From contig JALUHL010000047.1 of the NCBI GenBank assembly GCA_027053695.1, positions 1-5,125 on the forward strand: a stretch of 5,125 nt of DNA, in the 5' to 3' direction. Positions 2,475 to 5,125 of the stretch are shown one piece after another. Under the pieces are notes generated by a model. It had not been told where the DNA came from, searched no databases, and saw only the letters and a list, made by a program, of their open reading frames with translations. Every line of letters begins with the position of its first letter. Position 1 is the stretch's first letter. The position numbers and the translations under genes are program-made. This DNA comes from Ghiorsea sp. Lineage in GTDB: Bacteria > Pseudomonadota > Zetaproteobacteria > Mariprofundales > Mariprofundaceae.

Positions 2475-5125
2475 ATGAAAAAAGTTATGTCCCTGATGAA
2501 AGATAAAAGCCTACTATATTACCATGTTGAATGGATATTGATGCATCCAAGGTTTGGTATTTTAATGCTGGGGCTTGTCGCTCTTTCTTTCACGCATAAA
2601 CCTTGGCTCGCGGCTATTTTATTTTGTATTTTCACCATAGAAATTGGCGCTCGTATTGCCATAATCATCTACAAAACAAAGACAAACCCTTATCGCAAAT
2701 CTTTAAATCGGAAAATTGACGGTCTATTCCTTATTCTTGACATCATCGGCATTGCCTCTCTCCTTATCACTATTTTTGACATTCCTTTCCAAGCCGAAGA
2801 TGCCGCCATGGTACGCATGTTCCGTGCTTTATATTTGCTGCGTACTTTGCGTGTGTTCCGCTATTTTGATTTGCAAAGTGCCATGTATTCTCCCACATAC
2901 GGCATGTTCACATCCTTGGTAATCATGATTTCATTCTTTGCCACGGACACACTGCTGTGGGTGGTCATTATTTTCTTCTCCGTTGAACTTGTGCTGCGTT
3001 ATCTGATTATGAAGAATATGAATTTTGAATCCGAAAAAGAAAAACGCTATGAGTGGTTCTTCTGGTGGCTGGATGCGCTGGCAACCATTGTGATGGTGCC
3101 AGCATTTGCTATTATCCCTTATGGCGCTGCCCTGCGAAGCATGCGCCTTATTCGCTTGTTGCGCCCATGGATGGTCATTATCCGCAACCTTAAAGATGTG
3201 ATGCGGGAAGGTCAGTTCATGCAGGAAATTAACCTGATTGTATTGGTGCTTGCCGTGATCTCTATTGCAGGCGGTATTTTTGGTAATTTTATGATGCATG
3301 GCTTTGATTTTACACAAGATGGCATCGTTGACGCGCAAGATGATGGCATGATTCCCAAGATTTGGTTTGCTTTCCGTTTATTTACTGACCCTGGTAACAC
3401 TGTAGCTTTTCCAGAATCAAGCTCCATTGCCATATATTCTATTTTTGCCGTTATCATTGGCGTATTCATCTTTGCCTTCTTCATTGGCATTGGGGCAAGC
3501 ATTGTATCGGACTTGATGAACAAGCTGCGCAATGAACGCTTGGTGATTACCCGCCACATGGTGGTTTTTGGTTGGAACAATGTAGCACCTTATATTATCG
3601 CCCACCTTCGTCTGGTCGCAGAGCGTTCATTTTCTCATCTAAAATTGGTTTTGTTGCACCATGATGAGCAAGTACCTGAAGTGTTGTTGGAAGAAAAGTG
3701 GGTCACCTATCGCTATGGTGATGCCAAAAACATTCAAGATTTGCAGCGCGTCAACCTATCCGCAGCCAGACAGGCTTTAGTGCTTTTGCCGACTGAGCAA
3801 AGAGAAGCAGAAACCTTGCCTGAAAGCTTTTATTCCCTTGTCGCTATTCGTAATATGCAGCCTGATATTAAGCTTAGTATCGCTGTGCCGGGCATGAATA
3901 CTCCACGCATAGCTGAACACAAACATATGTTGCAAGTCGGCTGGGATAACCAAGGCGTATATGATAAACCCACGGTCATTTTATCGGCTGCAGATTTTCG
4001 TGCCAATGCCCTTAAAAACATTCTTCAATACAGTGATTTTGACCAAGTTATGAATCGCCTCATGATTCCAGAGCGCACCGAGGAATCATCGCTACAAGCC
4101 ATAGACTGGCAAGGCGCATTAACACAACAAGATAAAAGCTATATCTTATCTTCTGAAGATAACAAACATTCAGGTGATGTTTTTGCTATTGCTCAAGCTC
4201 TATTGATGCGCGGTGTCACCTTGGTAGGACTTGTGGATGAGCAGTTTAAAGTGGTTCCGCTGTATCGCTTGAAGCAACTTGACACTCTAAAAGTACGCGG
4301 CATTGCTGGTATTGCCTTGAATGAAAATGCTTTACAGGGTGAATTAGCTTATGTGCTTAAAACACAAGTCACTACAGTGCCTGCGTTGGAAGAAGCGCCA
4401 AACGTGAATATACAGGCATCTAAACCGCATATGCGCCTGCTGATTACTGGCTGGGTAGAAGGACTACCTTTATTACTTCAACGCTTGGCACCCGATTATG
4501 AAAATATTCACGTGGTTGTGCTCGACTGTTTTGATGAAGGCACGTTAAAAGACACCCAAGATTATATCCAACAGCGTTTGGCCACAGAAATCGATAGCGG
4601 GAAAATATCGCTGCTTATCAAAGCTTGGGATGGCAGTCATATGGAAATGCTGCGTGAACATGTCATCAACGCATCGCATGTTATGCTGGCAGATCCAATC
4701 AACAGCAAACAAAAACCCTTCACCGTCATCTCAACCATATTATCGCATATGATGAGTATTGTACGCACCGAGCATGTGCAACCCAAAATTTTTCCTATAT
4801 TACATGACCGTGACCAAGCACGCCTATTACAAGAGGAGTTGGATAGGTTCAGCTTACCCACAGAAGTGCACTTGCTCGTACCTGATGAATTTTATGGCGC
4901 ATATATCGCCCACACCAATTTTCATATGTACACAGCAGAAACTGAAGATGTCTATAAAATCAAACGTGTATTGCGGCATATTATCCATGATTTCATGGCT
5001 GACGATGATGATACCGACGCCTTGGAACTCTACACTTTAAAGGTAGATGCAGCCCTTGCTGATGAGCCTGAAGCTTTGTATGCATCTTTATTGGAGCAAG
5101 GTTATATCTGGATTGGTTATCGCTT
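2475..5125 (+). CDS. CASTOR/POLLUX-like RCK ion channel with two tandem voltage-sensor domains, C-terminus cut by window edge
   Basis: At least 883 residues of a membrane channel subunit, open to the window end. Voltage sensor 1 (about residues 27-130): S2 with FTIE (53-56) and R60, S3 with D89, S4 with R114, R117, Y120, R123, R126, R129. Voltage sensor 2 (143-237): S2 with FSVE (168-171) and R175, S3 with D200, S4 with R221, R224, R227, R230. A single pore follows: S5 (about 250-272), an acidic turret, pore helix (292-303), filter TDPGNT (304-309), and S6 (316-346). Two RCK-like Rossmann units start at HMVVFGW (361-367) and MRLLITGW (653-660); neither has GxGxxG. RYGDAKNIQDLQRVNLSAAR (413-432) and the IGYR near the end (880-883) recall plant CASTOR/POLLUX, whose C-terminus has IGYRL, so perhaps 40-60 residues are missing. 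The ATG at 2475 is the first after an in-frame stop at 2448 and has only a weak GAG ribosome site. Predicted: inner-membrane, tetrameric, gated by voltage and ligand. The ion carried is unknown. Family placement is from motif memory, not a search. Confidence 0.85.
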   Translation, partial: MKKVMSLMKDKSLLYYHVEWILMHPRFGILMLGLVALSFTHKPWLAAILFCIFTIEIGARIAIIIYKTKTNPYRKSLNRKIDGLFLILDIIGIASLLITIFDIPFQAEDAAMVRMFRALYLLRTLRVFRYFDLQSAMYSPTYGMFTSLVIMISFFATDTLLWVVIIFFSVELVLRYLIMKNMNFESEKEKRYEWFFWWLDALATIVMVPAFAIIPYGAALRSMRLIRLLRPWMVIIRNLKDVMREGQFMQEINLIVLVLAVISIAGGIFGNFMMHGFDFTQDGIVDAQDDGMIPKIWFAFRLFTDPGNTVAFPESSSIAIYSIFAVIIGVFIFAFFIGIGASIVSDLMNKLRNERLVITRHMVVFGWNNVAPYIIAHLRLVAERSFSHLKLVLLHHDEQVPEVLLEEKWVTYRYGDAKNIQDLQRVNLSAARQALVLLPTEQREAETLPESFYSLVAIRNMQPDIKLSIAVPGMNTPRIAEHKHMLQVGWDNQGVYDKPTVILSAADFRANALKNILQYSDFDQVMNRLMIPERTEESSLQAIDWQGALTQQDKSYILSSEDNKHSGDVFAIAQALLMRGVTLVGLVDEQFKVVPLYRLKQLDTLKVRGIAGIALNENALQGELAYVLKTQVTTVPALEEAPNVNIQASKPHMRLLITGWVEGLPLLLQRLAPDYENIHVVVLDCFDEGTLKDTQDYIQQRLATEIDSGKISLLIKAWDGSHMEMLREHVINASHVMLADPINSKQKPFTVISTILSHMMSIVRTEHVQPKIFPILHDRDQARLLQEELDRFSLPTEVHLLVPDEFYGAYIAHTNFHMYTAETEDVYKIKRVLRHIIHDFMADDDDTDALELYTLKVDAALADEPEALYASLLEQGYIWIGYR

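Follow-up and report, generated by a model that had tools for sequence, protein, structure and literature searches.

A gene for a predicted channel with two S1-S4 modules before one pore, often found among flagellar and chemotaxis genes of marine Zetaproteobacteria

The channel gene and its two S1-S4 modules

The stretch of Ghiorsea sp. DNA analysed here (the window; 5,125 nucleotides, contig C47 of its genome) has four Pfam-identified minus-strand genes, plsX, rpmF, yceD and fxsA, and, on the plus strand, a single long open reading frame (ORF) that runs from base 2475 to the end. This frame encodes a predicted channel in which two successive S1-S4 modules precede one S5-pore-S6 domain and two RCK domains. 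The gene is interrupted by the window end, and the start of contig C15 repeats the channel's last window residues and continues with a FliK-like ORF; database protein P0001, with 952 residues, is identical to the channel over the whole window. The available part of the FliK-like ORF has no Pfam match, and its name is taken from a close relative (L016), where the matching ORF is followed by flgD and flgE. The following features, all on the plus strand, were assigned:

2475..5123, plus strand: tandem-sensor channel gene (residues 1-883 of 952; runs past the window end)
2547..2864, plus strand: module 1, S1-S4 (residues 25-130; predicted helices, hallmarks in 46/46 sequences, fold matches)
2802..2864, plus strand: S4 of module 1 (residues 110-130; R114, R117, R123, R126, R129)
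2865..2891, plus strand: inter-module linker without pore element (residues 131-139)
2892..3206, plus strand: module 2, S1-S4 (residues 140-244; helices, hallmarks, homology to module 1)
3123..3206, plus strand: S4 of module 2 (residues 217-244; R221, R224, R227, R230)
3216..3293, plus strand: S5 (residues 248-273; AlphaFold2)
3306..3344, plus strand: acidic EF-hand-like turret loop (residues 278-290; conserved acidic residues)
3384..3398, plus strand: filter TDPGN (residues 304-308; alignment to two-transmembrane (2TM) Castor_Poll_mid proteins)
3420..3530, plus strand: S6 (residues 316-352; model less certain beyond 338)
3549..5123, plus strand: predicted double-RCK gating ring (from residue 359; truncated where the window ends)

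A sequence-only reading of this DNA had proposed two complete S1-S4 modules ahead of one pore at bases 2553 to 3524, which are indeed the start of residue 27 and the end of residue 350, and motifs, predicted helices and conservation all bear this out. The AlphaFold2 model of the 952-residue protein (mean pLDDT 80.3, with ten-residue membrane blocks down to 51-60 and the end of S6 below 50) has ten membrane helices and one pore helix. The residues of both proposed modules are predicted as four helices each (25-37, 43-70, 77-94 and 110-130 in module 1; 140-155, 159-181, 187-205 and 217-244 in module 2), followed by S5 (248-273), the pore helix (292-304) and S6 (316-352). Between the modules the model has only a short helix at 133-137 and no pore element at 130-140, as the same reading had claimed. 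The charges of the loops fit the predicted topology, with mean numbers of lysine plus arginine of 5.0, 3.8, 3.0 and 3.5 in the four predicted inside loops and 0.0-0.7 in the six outside loops; the comparison is uninformative at the N-terminus (2.2) and in the loop between S4 of module 1 and S1 of module 2 (1.0).

Voltage sensors are recognized by an aromatic-x-x-Glu-x-x-x-Arg motif in S2 and an Asp in S3. Both modules carry this motif (F53/E56/R60/D89 and F168/E171/R175/D200) as well as the S4 pattern of arginines at every third residue, and all of these residues, F167 and each S4 arginine named above are found in 46 of the 46 aligned sequences, so that chance does not account for these hallmarks; module 1 has a tyrosine where an arginine is expected (Y120, likewise 46/46). 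From S1 through S4, hhalign places the two modules in register (probability 96.8, E 3.1e-10), and module 1 has the predicted four-helix S1-S4 fold, its matches being channel S1-S4 domains, including those of TRP type that are not classical sensors. A likeness to G-protein-coupled receptors (neuropeptide Y receptors, profile E 0.004 and 0.007) was taken as chance because the matches span S2-S3 only and the fold matches favour channel S1-S4 domains. In Pfam and NCBIfam the window protein stays below every curated cut-off, the module-2 profile has no match among PDB chains up to E 10, and Ion_trans is matched by seven of the 46 members (best E 9.2e-14). An assembly or fusion artefact is ruled out, since the 46 aligned sequences and a second lineage share the module order, as do the titled isolates Mariprofundus ferrooxydans PV-1, M. 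micogutta ET2 and M. erugo P3.

This second lineage (lineage B, as opposed to lineage A of the window gene) is represented in the source genome itself by another, longer tandem-sensor gene (L002/L091), whose relatives mostly have 1,100-1,470 residues. A fully supported branch separates the lineages in a tree of 40 lineage-A and six lineage-B rows, and motifs, fold prediction and conservation give the order sensor-sensor-pore-RCK-RCK for both of these divergent lineages of one class, which makes the architecture real and conserved. Conservation in lineage B was counted over the query and 20 of its 68 matches (21 rows). Module 1 retains E56, R60, D89, R114, R117, R123 and R126 in all 21, and module 2 retains E171, R175, D200, R221 and R224 but no longer has arginine at 227 and 230, again in 21/21. 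Across the lineages, conservation is thus stricter in the outer sensor than in the inner one.

These counts bear on an alternative that we consider unlikely, namely that only module 2 senses voltage while module 1 is a fixed four-helix scaffold or dock, probably near flagellar or chemoreceptor proteins. The TRP-type fold matches, the tyrosine in its S4 and the fact that S5 is joined to module 2 only would suit such a scaffold, but its five S4 arginines, S2 glutamate and S3 aspartate are all invariant, and lineage B keeps the charges of module 1 while those of module 2 decay, the opposite of what a scaffold predicts.

Judged by filter alignment and model, the pore and gating ring appear CASTOR/POLLUX-like and not of K+ type, a point absent from the sequence-only reading. 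A K+ channel is ruled out, the filter being TDPGN, with no TVGYG; D305 and N308 are found in 46/46, P306 and G307 in 45/46 and T304 in 44/46 sequences, and the pore helix, the D-P-G of the filter and S6 are strongly conserved. The predicted double-RCK ring has the CASTOR-type two-RCK organization, and the modelled ring matches CASTOR. In the turret, D278 is invariant (46/46 aligned sequences, 21/21 lineage-B rows) and residue 289 is D or E in 46/46; with the acidic loop even stronger in lineage B, this EF-hand-like loop is a possible periplasmic Ca2+ site.

Flagellar and chemotaxis neighbourhood

Flagellar and chemotaxis operons are the setting to which the channel family is linked, a context which the earlier reading had missed. 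For lineage A, at least 43 loci from titled genomes were listed (L036 and L053, both contigs of one assembly, may be a single gene); all but L041 and L056, which are titled proteobacteria only, have titles with the name of Zetaproteobacteria or of one of its genera. Counted by eye from the gene listing, 17 of the 43 have genes of the fliF-motE block upstream and on the channel's strand, 18 have fliK, flgD or flgE downstream, and 25 have at least one of the two. In PV-1 the order is fliF-fliG-fliH-fliI-fliJ-like-motE/flbB-like-channel-fliK-flgD-flgE, with fliJ and motE/flbB named from weak matches. CheA is encoded downstream in six of 16 loci checked, together with CheW in five of these six (identities from Pfam for L039 and L040), and L042 combines CheA downstream with flagellar genes upstream. 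Altogether, 30 of the 43 loci have a flagellar or CheA neighbour. Eight of the 13 others have at most about 2.1 kb of downstream sequence; the remaining five (L032, L033, L046, L048, L056) have about 6 kb in view and no directly adjoining motility gene, with a chemoreceptor gene a few kb off in L032 and L046. As in the window, fxsA lies upstream on the opposite strand in nine loci (L016-L023 and L053). A gene for a lapG-like cysteine protease comes after flgE in PV-1 (L025:13906-14595; below the curated cut-off) and in the Mariprofundus-type loci L024, L028, L045, L049 and L058.

Lineage B was examined in 43 regions, of which all 38 with at least 500 bases visible have a chemoreceptor (MCP) gene directly upstream, and all 30 with at least 3,500 bases visible encode CheY and CheA downstream (identities from Pfam in L075, CheR from L080). 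The last ~120 residues of the lineage-B protein P0121 and its relatives (L072:1376-2584) resemble the C-terminal tail of chemoreceptors (hidden Markov model E 2.5e-4). Similar tail-like pieces occur as separate short frames in five genomes of the class (G020, G001, G002, G060, G076); a few of these pieces may reflect contig ends or broken frames. Two genomes have lineage-B matches (G039:C35 and G005:C99) with near-equal scores, equal frame length and equal spacing, which suggests that the contigs are near-identical or contaminating.

Among 78 genomes of the class, 51 have both the channel and fliF, 20 neither, four only the channel and three only fliF (Fisher p 7.7e-12), so that the two are jointly present or absent in 71; the corresponding numbers for the 39 genomes with a completeness of 90% or more and a contamination of 5% or less are 25, 10, 1 and 3 (p 4.5e-6). 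With CheA (PF02895) the 78 genomes divide into 44, 19, 11 and 4 (p 3.2e-7). Because seven genera include both co-present and co-absent members, repeated joint loss of channel and fliF is suggested, although Fisher statistics ignore kinship. One genome without a fliF match has a 31-residue channel match with a stop (G018:C53:195-287), possibly a remnant of recent loss. A profile scan of 398 genomes, about 320 of them outside the class, gave four outside matches: three are 2TM channels matched from the pore-S6 region up to where RCK1 begins, and one is a chemoreceptor matched by the lineage-B tail. Any restriction to the class thus applies within the genomes scanned here. In the protein database, the best 120 of 171 matches were listed, most of them without a name.

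Alternatively, the protein might be an ordinary channel for ion homeostasis or energy stress whose motility neighbours are merely co-regulated, with no action on swimming. The five loci with long downstream sequence and no directly adjoining motility gene would agree with this, and so would a further role of NavBP-type channels in pH homeostasis, to judge from the title of Ito 2004. However, the family occurs in three separate motility contexts (flagellar operon, CheA-CheW, MCP-CheY-CheA) and shares its presence and absence with fliF, and we regard this explanation as improbable.

Proposed function

The best explanation, to which we give about an even chance, is a CASTOR-like cation channel with eight sensors per tetramer that would couple membrane voltage to motility. 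To the established module order, conservation of both modules, non-K+ filter, modelled match of the ring to CASTOR and link to motility genes, it adds by inference the tetramer, the movement of both S4 helices, the selectivity, the ligand and the effect on swimming; voltage and ligand gating and the eight-sensor tetramer are inferred from the families that the protein resembles. Four subunits would probably form a cation channel, possibly permeable to Ca2+, with eight sensors, responding to a cytoplasmic ligand as well as to membrane voltage. The sensors would probably move when respiration or the proton-motive force changes; module 2, which connects straight to S5, would drive the pore, and module 1, outside the pore, might set the voltage range or steepness. 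Cation entry might then act on the motor or on CheA arrays encoded next to the channel genes, and the energy state of the cell would feed into flagellar and chemotactic control. As many copies of the channel gene lie amid flagellar and chemotaxis genes, membrane voltage likely influences swimming via the channel. That the sensor conducts little or nothing and its S4 movement is relayed mechanically by the RCK ring to CheA or the motor is very improbable given the strongly conserved pore helix, filter and S6, even if the chemoreceptor-like tail of lineage B and the position of its gene between receptor gene and cheY-cheA would suit such a relay.

Should the coupling of voltage to motility be correct, it might tentatively be taken further: the channel could be a new class with eight sensors that serves as the membrane-potential input of motility, with one paralogue in a flagellar operon and the other in a chemotaxis operon next to its receptor and CheA, a dedicated electrical sense of the Zetaproteobacteria, which are organisms living off redox energy. 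If both sensors work, a natural protein would have eight sensors on one pore, allowing a test of how sensor number and coupling affect gating, and if the motility link is true, it would provide a genetic handle on the old question of voltage-gated channels steering bacterial swimming.

Comparison with known channels

As far as our searches reach, the architecture is undescribed: among the papers listed by broad queries, with most subscription journals and preprints outside their reach, there is no description of a sensor-sensor-pore channel or of these genes, and the main text of a voltage-sensor review (PMC13095418) does not contain 'tandem', 'eight' or 'two voltage sensor'.

With the plant nuclear channels CASTOR, POLLUX and DMI1, the window channel shares, by its model, the CASTOR-type two-RCK gating ring. 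In the CASTOR/POLLUX filter, AD-S/A-GN, Asp, Gly and Asn are the same as in TDPGN, and Pro replaces Ser or Ala. Castor_Poll_mid has no match in the window protein up to E 1 and is not among the families matched by the 46 members up to 0.1. CASTOR is predicted to have four transmembrane segments (PMC6697748), whereas our model has ten and a pore helix, the eight additional helices forming the two S1-S4 modules. Bacterial 2TM relatives of CASTOR start shortly before the pore, in contrast to the window channel, which starts with the two modules. A CASTOR-like pore, known from plant symbiosis, would here be combined with voltage sensors in bacteria.

From module 2 on, the order S1-S4, S5-pore-S6, RCK1, RCK2 is that of Slo/BK channels. 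A profile match to Aplysia Slo1 covers residues 175-467 (E 0.002), and four of 50 VIA rows align to the Slo1 sensor from residue 136-138 onward, that is, with module 2 (root-mean-square deviation 17-20). Slo/BK, however, has the K+ filter TVGYG instead of TDPGN. BK also has a single extra helix, S0, before its S1-S4; in the window channel a whole S1-S4 module occupies this place.

BacNav, CavMr and NavBP (alkaliphilic Bacillus) are likewise bacterial cation channels with voltage sensors, and NavBP is reportedly a precedent for a role of a bacterial voltage-gated channel in swimming, besides pH homeostasis. BacNav is not known to have an RCK ring. It is described with one sensor per subunit, one domain of six transmembrane helices and a TLESW-type filter, compared with two modules, ten helices and TDPGN in the window channel. 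The authors of CavMr suggested (PMC7041947) that Ca2+ entering in response to voltage might affect the rotation of flagella.

More than one sensor per chain, finally, is a feature that the window channel has in common with TPC, Nav and Cav. In these channels sensor and pore alternate. The window channel departs from this alternation, its two sensors being adjacent with no pore element at residues 130-140.
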